DNA of 64,000 bases from Candidatus Bathyarchaeia archaeon (GTDB taxonomy: Archaea; Thermoproteota; Bathyarchaeia; Bathyarchaeales; Bathycorpusculaceae). Both the position numbers and the translations under genes were made by a program. The DNA is taken from positions 2,248,519 to 2,312,518 of the forward strand of contig CP166960.1 of assembly GCA_041447175.1 (NCBI GenBank). Reading direction: 5' to 3'. Positions 19,649-30,106 of the stretch are shown in pieces. Positions within the stretch are counted from its first letter, which is position 1, and the number at the start of each line of letters is the position of its first letter. The notes under the pieces were generated by a model. That model was not told where the DNA came from and ran no database searches. It worked only from the letters and a program-made list of their open reading frames with translations.

Positions 19649-20629
19649 TTAAACGACTAGGTCAGCCAAGTCAACGCTTTGGTTGTAAATTTGCTTCATG
19701 AAAGATGCGGTCGCCAGTGTCTGGGGCATAAAATCTAACGGCTGGTCCTTTGCCACTTGTTCAATGGCAACGGTTAACGTTTGGATTTTCTCGCGTGCCC
19801 GTCGCACACTCTCCGCTAAAACGATGTCTTTGTTCATGAAGGATTTCAAAGCTTGCTCATGAGTTTCGTAGCAGACTGTTTGTAAATCTGAAAGCAAAAT
19901 TCGTAACTCGTCAGAGGGCTTAACCCCGTTGAGCTCCAAAGTTTTTGCGGCAATCTGTACACATGCATCACCCATAGCTTCAACAAGACTAGCAGCTAAA
20001 CGATAATCCAAGCATTCGATTGTGGTTAACCCCAACTTCTCTCCCAACTGCGGATTTTGAATAATCGTACGCAAAATGCGAACCAAAAGGAAATAGAGGC
20101 GGTTACTTTCGTCGTCGCGGACTGTTACACTTTTGGCAAGCTGTAGGTCGCCATCAATAAAGGAGTTAGTGGCGTCTCGATGCATCCCCGCAACAATCGA
20201 GTAGTTACGGCGAAGAATTTTTTCAGGAGGAAAACCTGAAGGTTCAAGCAAACACTGCAGGACAATCTGCGAATAGTTTTCTTCCACAATCTCTAAGCCA
20301 ATCACTGAACCAACAGTTGCTTTAACCACTTTTCGGGTTTCCAAATCTATTCGTTCTTTGGCTTCAATTCGAATAATATCGGAGCCCAAAAGGTAATGTC
20401 CAATGATTTCGCGTCCCAGATACGGACCTACATTTAAAGAGGAAATTCTTGGTGGCGGTTCATCGTTATATTTTGGATCAATGAAGAGTTTTCCATCAAT
20501 TGTTTCACTTAAGGCCAGCATAACCCCTTTTTTAAGTCCGTGTTGTTCAGACCACTTTCGTGGCAGGCAGACAAAGAATGTGCCTGTGGGGGTTCGTTGA
20601 ACTTTACGTAAATCAGCCAATAAGTACAC
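19649..20629 (-). CDS. PhoU-domain regulator with N-terminal AbrB-type DNA-binding domain
   Basis: A 326-residue protein with an AbrB/SpoVT-like swapped-hairpin N-terminus (VQRTPTGTFFVCLPRKWSEQHGLKKGVML, residues 10-38) followed by two helical PhoU-like repeats from about 115 to the end. This fusion is common in archaea, annotated as phosphate uptake regulator. No Pst transporter gene is nearby in this window; the neighbour is the PolD small-subunit gene on the other strand. A perfect palindrome GTTATATTATAAC lies 65 bases upstream. A role in phosphate control is the usual inference, but with no phosphate genes nearby the true target is open. Confidence 0.8.
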   Translation of the reverse strand: MYLLADLRKVQRTPTGTFFVCLPRKWSEQHGLKKGVMLALSETIDGKLFIDPKYNDEPPPRISSLNVGPYLGREIIGHYLLGSDIIRIEAKERIDLETRKVVKATVGSVIGLEIVEENYSQIVLQCLLEPSGFPPEKILRRNYSIVAGMHRDATNSFIDGDLQLAKSVTVRDDESNRLYFLLVRILRTIIQNPQLGEKLGLTTIECLDYRLAASLVEAMGDACVQIAAKTLELNGVKPSDELRILLSDLQTVCYETHEQALKSFMNKDIVLAESVRRAREKIQTLTVAIEQVAKDQPLDFMPQTLATASFMKQIYNQSVDLADLVV

Positions 20630-22546: not shown

Positions 22547-23797
22547 CTAGTTTTTGGAATGATTATTTTTGGTTGATAGCTTGGTTTGGTAGTTGAGCAG
22601 GCGGCTTAGTCGGCTGTCGGTTCCAAAGACGTCTTGAATGATAGAACGGGAAATTTCAAGGCGGATTTTTTTAGTGCGTCCATAACGACCCATACTCACA
22701 ACCTTGGAGTTTAGCAAACCTATAGCGTCAAGTTCGTTGATAAGGGTGCCGAGTCGGCGCTGGGTCAGGAGGCTTACGCCTAATTCACCGCAGAGTTCAT
22801 TATACACGTCATAGATTTCTCCCGTAGTAGCGCTGCAGCCGCTGGTTTTCCCAAGATGATAAACGCTAAGAATAACCAGTTTAGAGTGGAGTGTTGAGTT
22901 TTTAAGTGCTTCGATGACTTTGTTGTGTTCGATGTTTTTTTCAGCTTCTCTCACATGCTCTTCAGTTACTTTAATTGAGCCTTGGCGTTCAGCCACTTCG
23001 CCTGCAACACGCAACAGGTCCAAGGCTCTTCGGGCATCACCATGTTCAGCTGCCGCTAAAGCAGAACATATGCTGAGTGCAGGTTCAGAGAGAGCGCCTT
23101 CAAAAAATCCGAGTTTTGACCGTTCAAGAAGGATGTTTCGTAGTTCGCTGGCGTCATAGGGTCGGAAAACCATTTCTTCTTCGCTAAGAGAACTAAACAC
23201 GCGTGGGTCCAGAAATTCTTTGAGTCGCAGGTCGTTTGATATTCCAATAAGGGCAAGTTTGCTTCTGTTAAGAGCCTCGTTAATTCGGGTTAATTCATAA
23301 AGGATGCTATCGCCGCGGTTTTTGATAAGGGCGTCAATTTCGTCCAGAATAATGAGAAATATTGTGCGTTTAGCATCTAAACCATTTCGGAATCGGTCAA
23401 ACACTTCTCCCACAGATAACCCCGTGAATGGAATAGATAGGCCTAAACTTTGGCTTAAGCCTGCAAAGATTCGATATTCTGAGCCAGTCATTCGGCAGTT
23501 TACGTAGCAAAACCTGACGGGTGCACCATACTCTTTGGCTTTTGACTCTAAATGGCTTAGGACGAATTTGGTGACTGCAGTTTTTCCAGTTCCAGTTTTT
23601 CCGTAAATGAAGATGTTTGAGCATCGTGAACCTTTCAGCACGGGTGCTACGGCTTGACCTAGTACGCGTATTTGTTGTTCACGGTGTGGAAGACGGTCTG
23701 GTAAATAGTCATGTCTTAGGACTTCACGGTCTTTGAAGAGCTTTGCTTCGTTAACGAATTTTTCGAAGACATCATCTAATATGTTTGGGTTGCCCAT
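22547..23797 (-). CDS. orc1: Orc1/Cdc6 replication initiator
   Basis: A 416-residue archaeal Orc1/Cdc6: AAA+ ATPase with Walker A YGKTGTGKTA near residues 65-74, Walker B LIILDEID, sensor-1 region GISNDLRLKEFLDPRV, then a C-terminal winged helix from about 300. In archaea this protein binds ORB repeats at the origin and loads MCM. It is transcribed away from an 810-base AT-rich spacer holding ORB-like elements, the usual origin arrangement. The neighbouring convergent gene encodes PolD DP1. No other Orc1 gene is in this window; whether a second initiator exists elsewhere is unknown. Confidence 0.96.
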   Translation of the reverse strand: MGNPNILDDVFEKFVNEAKLFKDREVLRHDYLPDRLPHREQQIRVLGQAVAPVLKGSRCSNIFIYGKTGTGKTAVTKFVLSHLESKAKEYGAPVRFCYVNCRMTGSEYRIFAGLSQSLGLSIPFTGLSVGEVFDRFRNGLDAKRTIFLIILDEIDALIKNRGDSILYELTRINEALNRSKLALIGISNDLRLKEFLDPRVFSSLSEEEMVFRPYDASELRNILLERSKLGFFEGALSEPALSICSALAAAEHGDARRALDLLRVAGEVAERQGSIKVTEEHVREAEKNIEHNKVIEALKNSTLHSKLVILSVYHLGKTSGCSATTGEIYDVYNELCGELGVSLLTQRRLGTLINELDAIGLLNSKVVSMGRYGRTKKIRLEISRSIIQDVFGTDSRLSRLLNYQTKLSTKNNHSKN

Positions 23798-23940
23798 GCT
23801 TGATCCTCATTTGCTTCAGAGGTTACACCGTTATTTCGGGTGGAACAGATAAAGGCTACAGTTTAAAAAAATAGTTGGGAAGCTAAACATTCCTAAAACT
23901 TGATGATAATTCTTTGAGATTACAGGTAGGAAAGACAGGC

Positions 23941-23964
23941 ACACCCCAAAATTTCTACTGGAGA
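23941..23964 (-). promoter_or_regulatory. ORB-like Orc1 binding site A
   Basis: On the minus strand this reads TCTCCAGTAGAAA, then TTTTGGGGTGT, close to the archaeal ORB consensus TTCCAGTGGAAAC-AA-GGGG. It shares TCCAGTAGAA with site C. Confidence 0.6.
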
Positions 23965-24128
23965 CTTTAATACTCTTGTGAGAGTATGTAAGATATAGTA
24001 GTAGAATAATAATACTCTGTGTGGTATTATTCAAGGAAGTATATTAATAATTATTGTTAAAGATTTTAGATTAGTAAACTATAAAATTTTTTTATACACC
24101 CAACAATCGGCTATTTACTAAGAGTTGT
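23965..24128. other. Candidate duplex-unwinding element
   Basis: Strongly AT-rich interval, including runs such as AATAATAATACT and TATTAATAATTATTG, lying between two oppositely oriented ORB-like sites. Position and composition fit an origin unwinding element. Confidence 0.5.
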
Positions 24129-24150
24129 TGGAGCGGAAATGAAGGGGTGT
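24129..24150 (+). promoter_or_regulatory. ORB-like Orc1 binding site B
   Basis: TGGAGCGGAAATGAAGGGGT matches the ORB core GTGGAAACGAAGGGG at nearly every position and points away from the AT-rich element. Confidence 0.65.
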
Positions 24151-24385
24151 CTCTCTGAACCCAAAAAGTAACATATTTTTGCTCTTTTTTCTGGCTGTAT
24201 TTTCCCCTCGAAGCCTTGTTCAAAAAATCAGTTTCATTTTTTTCTTCTAACTTTCCTCTGTGGTCTTCACAACCTCTTTACACTTCACAAATCTGTGAAT
24301 ACACTGTGAAAACCCAAATATAACTACTCGTATTTCTCCTCCTTACCGCTAAAACGGATTGATTTATGGCTTTTTACAGTAAACC

Positions 24386-24412
24386 ACACCCCCCTTGACT
24401 TCTACTGGAAAA
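24386..24412 (-). promoter_or_regulatory. ORB-like Orc1 binding site C
   Basis: On the minus strand it reads TTTTCCAGTAGAAGTCAAGG followed by GGGGTGT, with an extended G-run like classical ORB elements. It lies 240 bases beyond site B in the opposite orientation. Confidence 0.6.
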
Positions 24413-24607
24413 TGCGAACTAACCCTTTCCTGTAATTTTTTAGAAGATTGGAATTCTTGTGAACCTTGTTATCCCAAAATATCTGTAAATTCACGTTATT
24501 TTCGTTATTAGACGTGTTTTTTGGCTTTTTACATTTTTTGTTTTCACCGTAACAGCTATTAGGTGTGAAACGTAGAGTTGTGAACGCCGTTAAGGTGTAC
24601 TCTACAG

Positions 24608-25039
24608 ATGCCAGCTCGTAAAATGCGGGTAGAGCTATTCGACAGCGAAGGCAACCGATACACAGTTGCCTTTGAAGGCCAAATAACTAGAGATAAGGCT
24701 TTACGGCTTTTGGATCTGGTAGAGTTGCTTGGAGGCATGCCGGGAGAAACTCCAACTTCCAGTGGAGCTACAGCTCAAGCGGCTGGTAGCCTGTCACGGT
24801 TTGAGAAAGTTCGTGCCGTGGTTCAGAAGAGTTTTCCGCTTGTATGGTTTTCCTCAAAAGATATTCAATCGGTCTTTGAGCAGGAGCTAAAAGAACCCAT
24901 TAGTTTAAGCACTGTTTCCACTTACCTTTCACGCATGGCAACCAAGGGCTTTTTAGTTAGAACGGGAAGCGCCAGCAATTTGAAGTATAAAGTATCAACA
25001 GCTACTCCTCATGCTGTCATAAAACAGAAATTGAAGTAA
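24608..25039 (+). CDS. Small winged-helix protein next to the origin
   Basis: A 143-residue protein I cannot name. Residues 1-45 look like a small beta/alpha domain (KMRVELFDSEGNRYTVAFEG). A Gly/Ser/Thr/Ala linker follows, then a winged-helix from about 62, with a likely recognition helix in LSTVSTYLSRMATKGFLVRTG. It reads away from the origin with no close operon partner; the next gene is convergent. DNA binding is likely by fold. Position between the Orc1 site cluster and the repeat region makes a replication-linked regulatory role conceivable, which is inference from location only. Confidence 0.65.
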   Translation: MPARKMRVELFDSEGNRYTVAFEGQITRDKALRLLDLVELLGGMPGETPTSSGATAQAAGSLSRFEKVRAVVQKSFPLVWFSSKDIQSVFEQELKEPISLSTVSTYLSRMATKGFLVRTGSASNLKYKVSTATPHAVIKQKLK

Positions 25040-25073: not shown

Positions 25074-25874
25074 CTATGTGGCTGACGGCTCTGGTTTTTG
25101 CAGCATTGTTTCCATTTCTTTTTTAACGCTGTACTTAAATGGTAATTTGCCTGTTTCTCTTTCTAAGTATCCTTCTTCGTAGAGCTTCTTCATGAGCCTT
25201 GAGGTGTGTTCCCTGCTCAATTGCACTTTCTCTTTGATTTCTGGAGCCGTCTTTGGTCCTTGAGCAGACAAAAACTCCAGCACTTGAACTTCCGTTTCTG
25301 TCAAGGAAGCCATGGCTTTATCCCGCTTTATGGGAACCACAGGCATCACAGGAATTTCAGTTTCAGATTTCACTTCAGGAACCGCTGACAGTTTTTCAAG
25401 TTGCTCTTCAATGACCACAAGTTTATTTTTTAACTCTTCTTGTAGCGACTCAAGGTCTGTGAGTTTATTTTGGATTTTAGTTGTGTCAACATTGGCTACT
25501 TTCTCCAAAGTTTTCACATTCACATCTGAGACTGCACCCAGAGTGCTGCTTATGCTGTCAATTTGAGTATTTAACTGATTGACCTGAATTTCAAGAGGAA
25601 TTACCATATTTTCGATGTATTCTGCTTTTCTTAGTCCTGCTTCAGCTGTAGATGCATTAATCTCTACTTTGTAGGCTACGTTCTGTATTTTCTCTGCCTC
25701 CCGTTTGAGTTCCCGGTTAAAACTTAGCACCACATCCTCCACGGTGTCTTTGGCTTTTTCATATTCTTGCTTTGCTTTCTGCAGTCGCCTGTAGTATTCA
25801 ATGGCGGCATAACTTGTAGTAGCGAGTAAAACTGTTAAGAGAACTCCTACCAAAGCAACTGTTATATCTACCAA
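25074..25874 (-). CDS. Membrane-anchored coiled-coil protein with C-terminal winged helix
   Basis: A 266-residue protein of unknown function. One N-terminal membrane segment (about 3-25), then a long charged helical region to about 165 with heptad-like patterns (AKQEYEKAKDTVEDVV, DLESLQEELKNKLVVIEEQL), a short Pro/Val linker, and a MarR-like winged helix (about 190-255: LTETEVQVLEFLSAQGPKT and REHTSRLMKKLYEEGYLERE). It could tether DNA to the membrane through a coiled-coil stalk. The repeat array CGTGATTT x4 begins 12 bases in front of its start codon, so it is probably autoregulated or part of the same locus. Similar anchored wHTH proteins exist in archaea without assigned roles. Confidence 0.65.
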   Translation of the reverse strand: MVDITVALVGVLLTVLLATTSYAAIEYYRRLQKAKQEYEKAKDTVEDVVLSFNRELKREAEKIQNVAYKVEINASTAEAGLRKAEYIENMVIPLEIQVNQLNTQIDSISSTLGAVSDVNVKTLEKVANVDTTKIQNKLTDLESLQEELKNKLVVIEEQLEKLSAVPEVKSETEIPVMPVVPIKRDKAMASLTETEVQVLEFLSAQGPKTAPEIKEKVQLSREHTSRLMKKLYEEGYLERETGKLPFKYSVKKEMETMLQKPEPSAT

Positions 25875-25885
25875 AGTTTTCCCTC

Positions 25886-25929
25886 TGTGATTTGCTCGTG
25901 ATTTAGGCGTGATTTACACGTGACTTGTG
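25886..25929 (+). repeat. Left array: four 11-bp iterons (core YGTGAYTT)
   Basis: GTGAYTT cores start at 25887, 25898, 25909 and 25920, exactly 11 bases apart: three GTGATTT and one GTGACTT, the last three preceded by C and the first by T. The three spacer bases vary. The array ends 12 bases upstream of the membrane-anchored wHTH gene (start 25874, minus strand), overlapping its promoter region. Confidence 0.85.
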
Positions 25930-26000
25930 CTGTTGCATCACACATCACAGTTCTCCATGGAAAATTTAAGGTTTATGGTTTGTTTCCTTGATGTAATCTA

Positions 26001-26050
26001 TGATGTCACATATCACATTAACGCGTGATGTCTATTATCACAAACAACGT
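26001..26050 (+). repeat. 25-bp direct repeat, two copies
   Basis: Each copy begins TGATGTC and contains ATCACA eleven bases after its start (TGATGT-N5-ATCACA); the second copy starts exactly 25 bases after the first. The remaining positions match partly (ACGCG and ACAACG ends). It uses the same TGAT/ATCA words as the iteron arrays. Confidence 0.6.
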
Positions 26051-26204
26051 GTCCCTCTGATGTGTATAAAAATGCTGAAATTTGGCTTATTTTCTGTTTT
26101 GACCTGTAGTTTATACTTGTTTTGTTTGGTGTCTTTTTTACTGTGAGATGTTTGTTGTCACGTGTGATTTAGAGAGAATTGGGGCTGTTTTTGAGCTCTT
26201 TTTT

Positions 26205-26221
26205 GTGATTTGTGACGTCAC
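26205..26221 (+). repeat. 17-bp GTGA motif with perfect GTGACGTCAC palindrome, left copy
   Basis: GTGATTT followed directly by GTGACGTCAC. An almost identical copy lies at 27102-27118. It overlaps the stop codon of the 159-residue gene. Confidence 0.65.
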
Positions 26222-26697
26222 ATATTGCCTTCTGAGGGTGTGGAAAGGCGTTTTAGGCTTGATTCTATTTCCTCTCTGATGATTTCAATGACCTTTAGAT
26301 GCTCCTGTAACCCATCCATATCATTCGGGAGGTTCTCATGTGCCTCCATATACTCCTTCAATTTATTTGCTATTTCGAGATATGGGTCAAGAGTTGTGGT
26401 CTCAAATACTCCTAAATAGCCTAACAGCAACACTGTGTATATTGACTTTATGACGTTTTCTTTAGACTGATTTAATGTCCTATTAAAGGAACCGCGGCTT
26501 AATTTAGCCTTTGTTAGCCGTAATTTGGCTTTTTCGTCGTACTTTAACGGTTTGCCCGCCATACTTTCGGCTAAAATGTCAATAAGGAGCGTTTCGAGTT
26601 GTGTTCGTGTTAATTGGCTGTTTTTGGAGAGTATTTTGACAACGGGGTCGTTTAATGCCCCGTTTAGCCACAATTGTACGTTGTCTTTAAGCTTCAA
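26218..26697 (-). CDS. Unrecognised 159-residue helical protein between two inverted iteron arrays
   Basis: A predominantly helical, charged protein I do not recognise. It looks conserved in style rather than spurious: ordered segments LTRTQLETLLIDILAESMAGK, KAKLRLTKAKLSRGSFNRTL and NVIKSIYTVLLLGYLGVFE, with the Arg/Lys-rich middle suited to nucleic-acid contact, then a C-terminal helix (YLEIANKLKEYMEAHENL and later EIIREEIESSLKRL). The start is TTG 26697 behind GGAGAA. It is flanked by facing 11-bp repeat arrays and two palindromes, and reads toward the membrane-anchored wHTH gene. A centromere- or iteron-binding role is a hypothesis based on placement and size. Confidence 0.6.
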   Translation of the reverse strand: MKLKDNVQLWLNGALNDPVVKILSKNSQLTRTQLETLLIDILAESMAGKPLKYDEKAKLRLTKAKLSRGSFNRTLNQSKENVIKSIYTVLLLGYLGVFETTTLDPYLEIANKLKEYMEAHENLPNDMDGLQEHLKVIEIIREEIESSLKRLSTPSEGNM

Positions 26698-27101
26698 TCT
26701 TATGTTCTCCGCGTTATGCTGAATGGATACAGTTTTGTATACTTACGCACATTTTAAAAGGTGTCTGCACTATTTTACACCCAAATCAACTGTCTAACTT
26801 CTATAAACTTCCTTTATTTTAAATAAAATGACAAATTTGGGATAAAAATCTAATAATAGGTATAATTTGAGGTTTATATTTAAATAAAGGCGTTTTTCAG
26901 GCGTATTTTTTTCTGTTATTTGGTTAAGTCTAGTCTAAAATGAACTTTTTCTTTAAACATAAACTCTTTCAATTACTTCAAATAGGCGCTTTTACATCAA
27001 TTATTCTTGCCTAAAGAACGACCAAAAGGGCATGCATACGTTTAATCTATCATGCTTATCCTCCTTAAAGCAAGTTAAAAATATCAATTTTTACGCGTGT
27101 T

Positions 27102-27118
27102 GTGACTCGTGACGTCAC
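27102..27118 (+). repeat. 17-bp GTGA motif with perfect GTGACGTCAC palindrome, right copy
   Basis: GTGACTC followed by GTGACGTCAC, 15 of 17 bases identical to the left copy at 26205-26221 and in the same orientation. It directly abuts the right iteron array. Confidence 0.65.
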
Positions 27119-27173
27119 CAATCACATCAAATCACGCCCGAATCACGGCAAAGTCACGGACAAATCACGAGTG
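27119..27173 (-). repeat. Right array: four to five 11-bp iterons in inverted orientation
   Basis: TCAC cores begin at 27132, 27143, 27154 and 27165, exactly 11 bases apart, within AATCACG or AGTCACG units; a fifth AATCACA lies ten bases before the first. On the minus strand the unit reads CGTGATT, the same as the left array, so the two arrays face each other across about 1.2 kb. Confidence 0.85.
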
Positions 27174-27203
27174 ATTGTCACAGAATCTGATGATATCACG
27201 AAC

Positions 27204-27225
27204 CTGTGATGCATCTGTGATGTTG
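27204..27225 (+). repeat. Two CTGTGATG units 11 bp apart
   Basis: CTGTGATG occurs at 27204 and 27215, again 11 bases apart, in the orientation of the left array. It lies just outside the right array and before the nitrilase-family gene end. Confidence 0.55.
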
Positions 27226-27292
27226 CTTACCAAGGCATTTGCGCCGCTAAATACAACGGAAGCTTCAAAAGGTTGATTTTAAAAATGGGTGT

Positions 27293-28136: not shown

Positions 28137-28979
28137 TTAGTATGTGCTGTAGGGAAGCCGAAAATCAGTTCCCACCGTTCGATATTCGAGTTTCGGAGTC
28201 AACGGCAGCCGCCGCTTATGCTCCGCCCTCAACCACCGGCTCTTCACGCCTTCAACTTCGCTCTCTTGAATGCCTAGTTGATTGGCGATTTCGGCTATGG
28301 GCATGAAACGTTCCAGCCCAAAAAGAATCAGGTCAAGCACTTCATAGCGGATTCCAAGTTCCTCTTCTGCCTGCTGATTAACCCACAGGGCCGGCGTAGA
28401 CGGCTTCTGGGTAAGCTCGGTGGAGATGCCTATGTGGGCGGCGAGTTGTCGGACCTGCGTTTTGTATAGGTCCATTATTGGGGAGAAGTCTGCGGCTACG
28501 TCCCCCCACTTGGTAAAGTAGCCCATCATGGTTTCGGATTTGTCGCTGCTTCCACAAATCAGACGGTTGAGTTTGTTAGCGTGATAGTAAAGGAAAATCA
28601 TGCGGGTGCGGGCTTTGATGTTGCCCCTGCAAAGCCTGTCTTGGGGGTCAAAGGCGGGCATGGATTTGTATGTGCCCTCCACCGCGGCTGTGATGTCACA
28701 GACTTGGGTTTGTATCCCAAACTGCGCCGCCACCACCTTGGCGTCTTGAATGTCTTTTTGGTTGAACGTTTCTTTCTCCGGAAGCATAAGCCCCAAAACT
28801 TTCTCGCCTCCAATAGCTAACGCTGAAAGGGCTGCCACGGTGTTGCTGTCGATGCCTCCTGACATGCCTAAAACGATGCCTTTAGCTCCCGAGTTATCCA
28901 CGTAGGTTCGGATAAACCGCGTGATTCTGGTTTGCACATCGTCAAGGTTTAGTTGCAGAACTGAAGGTTTAAGCTTCAA
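28137..28979 (-). CDS. nadE: NAD+ synthetase
   Basis: A 280-residue NadE, which amidates nicotinic acid adenine dinucleotide using ATP. The PP-loop LGMSGGIDSNTVAALS is near residues 38-53, with the downstream GSSDKSETMMGYFTKWGD block and the PSTPALWVNQQAEEELGI region typical of the family. It lacks the N-terminal glutaminase domain of longer enzymes; the gene ten bases downstream encodes that type of domain separately. First gene of a two-gene leftward operon. Confidence 0.93.
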   Translation of the reverse strand: MKLKPSVLQLNLDDVQTRITRFIRTYVDNSGAKGIVLGMSGGIDSNTVAALSALAIGGEKVLGLMLPEKETFNQKDIQDAKVVAAQFGIQTQVCDITAAVEGTYKSMPAFDPQDRLCRGNIKARTRMIFLYYHANKLNRLICGSSDKSETMMGYFTKWGDVAADFSPIMDLYKTQVRQLAAHIGISTELTQKPSTPALWVNQQAEEELGIRYEVLDLILFGLERFMPIAEIANQLGIQESEVEGVKSRWLRAEHKRRLPLTPKLEYRTVGTDFRLPYSTY

Positions 28980-29075: not shown

Positions 29076-29339
29076 GTGGGCCGAAGAAGGAAAAAAGTTA
29101 TCCACATTCCAAAGAAACGTTTACCCAAATTCTTCTCCTGCCCAAGATGCGGAAAAGAAACGGTCAGAGTAGAAATCATACGTGAAGAAGACCGCGCTAT
29201 CGCAGGCTGCAGTAGCTGTGGGCTTCAAGAAGAGTTCCCAATAAAGCAAGCCCAAGGCGAAGTGGACATCTACTGCATGTTCACTGACAAAATCTACGGC
29301 GCTTCTAGACGGTCAGTACCCCTCAAAGATGCCAACTAG
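29076..29339 (+). CDS. Elf1-like transcription elongation factor (zinc ribbon)
   Basis: An 87-residue protein with a very basic start (MGRRRKKVIHIPKKRLPK) and a CPRC/CSSC zinc ribbon, the pattern of archaeal homologues of eukaryotic Elf1, which associates with elongating RNA polymerase. The start is GTG 29076; a TATA-like GTATTTAAG lies about 55 bases before it. It is followed after 14 bases by the GGGPS gene, probably the same transcript. Confidence 0.85.
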   Translation: MGRRRKKVIHIPKKRLPKFFSCPRCGKETVRVEIIREEDRAIAGCSSCGLQEEFPIKQAQGEVDIYCMFTDKIYGASRRSVPLKDAN

Positions 29340-29353
29340 GATCGGTTATTTGC

Positions 29354-30106
29354 ATGCTTGGACGTGTAGAGAAATACTTAATGGAAAAAATCAAAGCCGA
29401 CGGCTCAATTCACATGACTCTCCTTGACCCAGAAAAGCTTTCTCCTCAACAAGCGGCTCAAATTGCTCAAAGCTCTAAAGAAAGTGGAACCGCAGCCATA
29501 ATGATTGGTGGCTCAACATTTGTCTCCCAAATCCACTTAGACCAAGTTTTAGAATCTATTCACGAAGCAGTGGATTTGCCCACTATTTTGTTTCCTAACA
29601 ACATAACTGGCATCAGTCGACACGCCGACGCCATGTGGTTCATGTCCCTGCTTAACTCGGTGGATCCCTACTTCATTGTGGGCGCGCAAATCCTTGCTTC
29701 GCCTTTGGTTAAGAAGTTTGGGTTGGAACCCATATCCATGGGGTACATCATCGTCGGTGAAGGTGGAACCGCAGGCATAGTCGGCAAAGCCATCCCCATA
29801 CCCTACAACAAACCCGAACTTGCTGCTGCTCACGCACTGGCGGCACAGTATTTTGGCATGCGCTTCATATACCTCGAAGGTGGTTCAGGCGCAAAAAACC
29901 CTGTGCCTCCTGAAATGATTCACGCTGTAAAAAAAGTAACTGACGCCACACTCATTGTTGGCGGCGGCATAAAAACTAAAGAAGCAGCCTTGACGGCGGT
30001 TTCTGCAGGCGCCGACATAATTGTGACGGGTAACCTCGTGGAGTCAGAGGGGTCTGAGCAGAAAGTTGCTGAAATAATTAGCGGAATTAAAGTGGTCAAG
30101 CCGTAA
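29354..30106 (+). CDS. Geranylgeranylglyceryl phosphate synthase
   Basis: A 250-residue TIM-barrel GGGP synthase, which makes the first ether bond of archaeal membrane lipids from sn-glycerol-1-phosphate and geranylgeranyl-PP. Family motifs are in place: HMTLLDPEKL at the start, MIGGST, LFPNN, YLEGGSGAKNPV (active-site Glu and glycerophosphate binding), VGGGIKT and IVTGNLVE. Length is typical for the group II archaeal type. It gives firm evidence that the host is an archaeon. Confidence 0.95.
   Translation: MLGRVEKYLMEKIKADGSIHMTLLDPEKLSPQQAAQIAQSSKESGTAAIMIGGSTFVSQIHLDQVLESIHEAVDLPTILFPNNITGISRHADAMWFMSLLNSVDPYFIVGAQILASPLVKKFGLEPISMGYIIVGEGGTAGIVGKAIPIPYNKPELAAAHALAAQYFGMRFIYLEGGSGAKNPVPPEMIHAVKKVTDATLIVGGGIKTKEAALTAVSAGADIIVTGNLVESEGSEQKVAEIISGIKVVKP

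Follow-up and report, generated by a model that had tools for sequence, protein, structure and literature searches.

Short iterons bound by a winged-helix protein are characteristic of type III partition (TubRC). In type II partition, plasmid R1 has 11-bp direct repeats at parC, near the gene of the small protein ParR (PMC9426499). The stbDRs of plasmid R388 comprise two sets of five 9-bp repeats and have an 11-bp period because the repeats are spaced by 2 bp; the stability of R388 needs the DNA-binding StbA and not the Walker ATPase StbB (PMC3098194). Among archaea, the chromosome segregation system SegAB of Sulfolobales has sites clustered near its own genes and also along the chromosome, with the SegB motif TCTAGA-S-TCTAGA and with a ParA-type ATPase, SegA, as the partner (PMC12284271). 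What archaeal chromosomal centromeres look like has been listed as an open question in a review, which covers SegAB from Crenarchaea and some Euryarchaea (PMC5120986).

The locus described here lies in the window (the whole stretch of 64,000 nucleotides that was analysed) from the chromosome of a Bathyarchaeia archaeon. The gene order DP2, nadE, CN hydrolase, cluster A, p159, cluster B, cc266, wH143, orc1 and DP1 is conserved in most of 80 Bathyarchaeia loci, with two optional additions in some of them: an aminotransferase gene between the CN hydrolase gene and p159, and an insert of ~2.6 kb between cc266 and wH143. The p159 gene (26218–26697, minus strand, TTG start) encodes a 159-aa all-helical protein of a new family. 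The product of cc266 (25074–25874, minus strand) has 266 residues, with a predicted N-terminal transmembrane helix, a helical stalk of ~160 residues, a linker and a C-terminal MarR/TrmB-like winged helix. The small conserved protein wH143 (24608–25039, plus strand), with weak HTH-type profile matches, is syntenic with orc1.

An earlier note on this DNA had described two arrays of 11-bp units facing each other in opposite orientation on either side of p159, and this layout was confirmed. Array B (25886–25929, plus strand), located directly upstream of the cc266 start codon, is formed by four YGTGAYTT units with an 11-bp period (GTGA cores at 25887, 25898, 25909 and 25920). Array A (27121–27169, minus strand) is formed by inverted units with TCAC at 27132, 27143, 27154 and 27165, likewise 11 bp apart, and by a fifth one at 27122, 10 bp ahead of the next unit. 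The two palindromic motifs of the note are present as well: TGTGACGTCACA at 26211–26222, which overlaps the p159 stop codon, and GTGACGTCAC at 27109–27118. The arrays are one component of a larger cluster of GTGAY half-sites. Its part B (25875–26222) occupies the interval between p159 and cc266 and includes array B and palindromes; its part A (27098–27222) lies between the CN hydrolase gene and p159 and includes array A and GTGACGTCAC (no strand is assigned to the clusters or the palindromes). Numerous half-sites with 5- and 7-bp spacing add to those noted earlier, and the spacings found in the 1.4-kb cluster are 5 bp (the palindrome), 7 bp and 11 bp. The stretch 25875–27292 holds 28 GTGAY/RTCAC half-sites against a mean of 4.9 (maximum 14) in 2000 first-order-Markov shuffles; for pairs at a distance of exactly 11 bp the count is 7, against 0.01 (maximum 1), and neither observed count was reached in any shuffle. 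Across the 2.73-Mb genome the triple-unit pattern is confined to this locus (control pattern 0).

By layout, one of the closest analogues is parC/ParR of R1, where 11-bp direct repeats stand near a small-protein gene as they do here. Short direct-repeat arrays, the form of the centromere in type II partition (ParMRC), are present and may act as one here, but the present locus is chromosomal and lies beside oriC, its two arrays point towards each other and have palindromes interspersed, no linked ParM was found in the window or in most of the 80 related loci, and the likely binder is a membrane-anchored winged-helix protein and not a ribbon-helix-helix one. The analogy with a small ParR-like protein drawn in the earlier note did not stand: p159 was ruled out as a ParR, its AlphaFold model being all-helical (mean pLDDT 85, no strand) and without a PDB fold match, and cc266 is the likelier DNA binder. 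The stbDRs/StbA of R388, with the same 11-bp period, are also among the closest analogues by layout; unlike this locus they are plasmid-borne, and no membrane-anchored stalk has been described for them. The sites of SegAB are clustered near their own genes, as here, whereas the motif of the present locus is YGTGAYRTCACR and its neighbourhood contains no ParA-type gene. TubRC resembles the presumed arrangement in placing a winged-helix protein on short iterons, but there is no tubulin-like TubZ at the locus, and the presumed binder carries a fused membrane anchor instead. AspA from the AspA-ParBA system of Sulfolobus pNOB8 is an archaeal winged-helix centromere binder, and a Foldseek search with the cc266 model returned it (4rs8 with a TM-score of 0.70 by target, 5k5q with 0.61) alongside numerous MarR proteins, which beat AspA by E-value, so that the similarity is generic to MarR/PadR-like winged-helix domains. 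In contrast to AspA, cc266 has an additional transmembrane helix and a long stalk, and no ParB and ParA genes stand alongside in the neighbourhood. The statement that no actin- or tubulin-like partner is encoded here holds for the window and most of the 80 loci, where the neighbours are orc1, DP1, wH143, cc266, p159, the carbon-nitrogen hydrolase gene and nadE; no ATPase or cytoskeletal partner was found in this neighbourhood, which counts against the reading favoured below.

We favour, with a probability of roughly 0.55, the reading that the locus is an origin-proximal, centromere-like anchoring site which would be bound by the membrane-tethered winged-helix protein cc266. The earlier proposal was of a centromere-like or initiator-binding locus of a kind unknown from archaea; its first half is the best-supported class of explanation, and its second half is disfavoured by the position of the origin elements (see below).

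The arrays and the half-sites differ in their conservation. At loci found through p159, array B has 3–4 exact 11-bp units in 7/7 genomes of the genus, and array A keeps an uninterrupted run of three or more units in four of the seven. The triple-unit pattern gave 21 matches in 61 genomes of the order, all 21 of them beside p159 (control 0). The array unit reads Y-GTGA-Y-TT (423 units in 11-bp arrays, 80 loci); GTGAY was fixed by the search itself, while the flanking Y (0.87 bit) and TT (~0.4 bit each) were free, and the spacer columns carry 0.04–0.15 bit. The core is therefore accompanied by drifting spacers, the behaviour that the earlier note had proposed to look for. Outside the genus the strict 11-bp array was rejected as the conserved feature. 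The half-sites persist there, with same-orientation spacing peaks at 7 and 11 bp, inward-facing pairs peaking at 5 bp (the palindrome GTGAYRTCAC) and everted pairs at 7 bp. Relatives with the same genes but without phased repeats, the case that the earlier note held against its own proposal, do exist beyond the genus as far as the strict array is concerned; the half-site cluster, however, is kept with other spacings. Distant members of the phylum possess p159 and cc266 homologues, often near orc1 or wH143, and many of them have half-site peaks at the same place. On this comparative evidence the strict 11-bp arrays are judged to be a genus feature, and the half-site cluster to be much older, extending to distant phylum members.

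The half-site density amounts to 33.8 per kb in the p159-cc266 interval (74 loci), compared with 0.8–3.3 per kb in genes and 1.6 per kb in the orc1 intergenic region. In the 21 genomes searched, YGTGAYRTCACR palindromes lie almost exclusively within 3 kb of p159; the genome studied here has two copies only, at 26211–26222 and at 28689–28700. A loose gapped triple pattern was without locus specificity in several distant genomes.

In 30 loci (L059, L072, L084 and others) the gap between the hydrolase gene and p159 is filled by an inserted aminotransferase gene (Aminotran_1_2, 4e-72 in L059), which contains half-sites in its reading frame at recurring positions. Over the 30 loci the coding sequence holds 228 sites, where 99.4 would be expected from synonymous shuffling (z 15.9); the control values are z 0.6 for the hydrolase gene, 2.5 for nadE and 2.7 for orc1. 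The element RTCAC-N2-GTGAY-N6-GTGAY-N2-GTGAYRTCA is written into the aminotransferase codons ~650 bp before p159. It is complete in 20/30 loci with the insert and in 6/50 others (in some of these within a noncoding stretch); its first three sites are found in 24/30 and 17/50 loci, respectively, and three other occurrences of their layout were counted in 1.57 million strand-bases. The codon identity excess is 0.37 over the element and 0.08 in the rest of the gene. As judged from these values, the aminotransferase coding sequence is dual-use DNA with strong synonymous-site constraint on the overlapping element, and such selection of DNA sites within an enzyme gene is unusual in itself. In distant relatives the coding sequences of p159 and cc266 also have more sites than synonymously expected (z 3.4–10.4), but p159 has no excess in loci without cc266 (z −1.0, against −0.8 to −1.2 in control genes). 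A further coding-embedded site is the YGTGAYRTCACR-type palindrome within the nadE reading frame (28689–28700, copy TGTGATGTCACA, no strand assigned); there are related genomes with palindromes similarly distant from p159.

These sites bear on the possibility that cc266 is a membrane-bound autoregulator, which would control transcription of p159, cc266 and the neighbours through GTGAY and would not anchor the chromosome. Array B immediately precedes the cc266 start codon and is itself preceded by a conserved promoter-like stretch (CTTAAAT), the winged helix is MarR/TrmB-like, and the sites are limited to the surroundings of the operon, all as expected of such a regulator. The number of half-sites (~28 over 1.4 kb), the sites 650 bp upstream in the opposite-strand aminotransferase coding sequence and those under synonymous constraint inside p159 and cc266 nevertheless make this explanation rather unlikely. 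Sites exceeding the synonymous expectation in all three coding sequences are not promoter operators alone; in addition, only a few residues of cc266 lie outside the membrane according to the model, so that it would be without a sensor domain. A spatially arranged nucleoprotein assembly explains the coding-embedded sites.

The make-up of the 266-aa neighbour, with its membrane helix, coiled coil and winged helix, had not been recognised in the earlier note. The C-terminus of cc266 belongs to the MarR/TrmB winged-helix superfamily, with profile matches to TrmB (7.6e-9) and MarR (2.7e-8) both over the curated cut-off, and bears the conserved recognition-helix segment [ST][RK]EH..R..K. The predicted model consists of helices 2–128 and 131–162, a disordered linker and the winged helix. 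A transmembrane helix was detected in 37 of 41 distant homologues; among the four others, the locus of one (L128) still has a strong half-site cluster. Loci with cc266 contain 3.1x the expected number of sites and 23/42 are individually significant, whereas loci with p159 and without cc266 contain 0.93x and 1/18 is significant (related genomes are treated as independent in both counts). The sole significant cc266-less locus (L156) is cut off by a contig edge at the place expected for cc266; conversely, clustering is weak or absent at the cc266-containing loci L122, L125, L166 and L174. GTGAY is assigned to cc266 because the sites co-occur with it and not with p159 alone, and this co-occurrence, uncorrected for phylogeny, makes the winged helix of cc266 the likely binder. 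No relatives of cc266 were found in plasmids.

That p159 rather than cc266 binds the GTGAY sites could be suggested by the position of its gene inside the cluster and by its highly conserved basic segment SRGAFNRTLKQAKENV. We regard this as improbable, because the 18 loci with p159 and without cc266 lack the cluster, bar the one at the contig edge, and because p159 may have another site. The latter is a promoter-region palindrome built on TACA-N4-YGTA and distinct from GTGAY, which is kept upstream of p159 in 76/80 Bathyarchaeia loci. In the window it is GGATACAGTTTTGTATAC (26725–26742, no strand assigned), reading GTATACAAAACTGTATCC on the p159 strand, and distant relatives, including some without cc266, have related versions of it (for example TACAGATCTGTA); this palindrome is possibly the own operator of p159. 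The protein itself is present in 36/39 good genomes of the order and in 104/299 of the phylum. It has no Pfam, NCBIfam or PDB match, divergent members gave sub-threshold matches only in a Pfam scan (HTH_10 among them), and no relatives were found in phages.

The probable oriC lies outside the GTGAY cluster. The orc1/cdc6 gene (22547–23797, minus strand; Cdc6_C 1.5e-25) is syntenic, and the intergenic region between wH143 and orc1 (23798–24607; ~800 bp in most loci) contains ORB-like elements which the earlier note had not reported: TTTTCCAGTAGAAGTCAAGGGGGGTGTG at 24385–24412 and TCTCCAGTAGAAATTTTGGGGTGTG at 23940–23964, both on the minus strand. Such elements, typically TTTCCAGTAGAAG...GGGGTG, were found in the orc1 intergenic region of 61/67 syntenic loci (131 copies), with a density of 2.4 per kb there and 0.07 per kb elsewhere, at a distance of 1.5–1.9 kb from the GTGAY cluster. 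The window has no GTGAY in this region, and the motif is unenriched there across the related loci. Like the known archaeal ORB/Orc1 elements, the GTGAY cluster lies beside orc1, but the elements of known type (a TCCANTNGA-type element followed by a G-string) occupy a different intergenic region here, and the cluster has another motif in another place. Orc1 was accordingly ruled out as the binder of the arrays. In the sampled chromosome stretches, both the GC skew and the purine skew switch sign close to this neighbourhood. Since their polarity is the inverse of the bacterial convention, this supports a replication switch point and not its kind.

The cluster might alternatively be a part of the origin made of replication-control iterons, with cc266 and p159 regulating initiation, for example by sequestering the origin at the membrane. 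The fixed neighbourhood with orc1, DP1 and DP2, the nearby skew switch and an AT-rich stretch (up to 79% A+T, 26801–26900) adjoining array A are in line with this. Given the separate location of the ORB elements in a region without GTGAY, it seems distinctly improbable; moreover, in the aminotransferase clade most of the DNA that separates cluster A from p159 is coding, so that the AT-rich block cannot count as a fixed element for unwinding.

According to the preferred reading of an anchoring site, the C-terminal winged helix of cc266 would bind the ~28 half-sites with cooperativity, whether they stand as palindromes of adjacent inverted copies, as pairs with 7-bp spacing (everted or direct) or as direct arrays with an 11-bp period. 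The protein would act as a dimer, presumably formed via the stalk, with the N-terminal transmembrane helix fixing the ~160-residue stalk in the membrane; fully extended, the stalk could reach ~24 nm (160 residues x 0.15 nm). Encoded inside the site cluster, p159 is probably a member of the complex or a regulator of the module. Such an assembly would hold the newly replicated origin region at the membrane, 1.5–1.9 kb from the ORB elements, and the tethering may help to position, separate or segregate the chromosome, with no filament-forming motor dedicated to this task.

Literature searches returned no description of the p159/cc266 gene pair or of the GTGAY motif, and the locus looks like a previously undescribed archaeal way of holding or sorting chromosomes. 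For Bathyarchaeia and their relatives, Nitrososphaeria apparently among them, it is a concrete centromere candidate that has stayed next to oriC throughout a phylum: its DNA sites are defined, its likely binder carries a membrane anchor of its own, and a partner protein goes with them. A wider claim, to which we would give somewhat short of even odds, is that Bathyarchaeia and related archaea have an undescribed segregation system, in which an origin-linked GTGAY centromere, lying partly inside protein genes, would be tethered to the membrane by a winged-helix protein on a long stalk, together with a new helical partner, and would work without a cytomotive filament.

Many of the relatives are draft assemblies. 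In the draft genomes G035, G038, G043, G044 and G055 a search for wH143, run without a positive control, gave no match; three of the five are >90% complete, and the origin region may assemble poorly. The joint absence of p159, cc266 and the palindromes in G038, G043 and G044 was dropped as evidence, an assembly gap being likely there since wH143 was not found either. The cc266-wH143 insert of one locus (L039, 7473–10008, minus strand) contains two genes of 518 and 338 aa, which by eye we take to be a HerA-like ATPase and a NurA-like nuclease, and inserts of similar size stand at this place in other loci. In the window, genes for an Elf1-like zinc-ribbon protein (29076–29339) and a PcrB-family protein (29354–30106) are located between nadE and DP2, and a gene for a PhoU-domain protein (19649–20629, minus strand) adjoins DP1.
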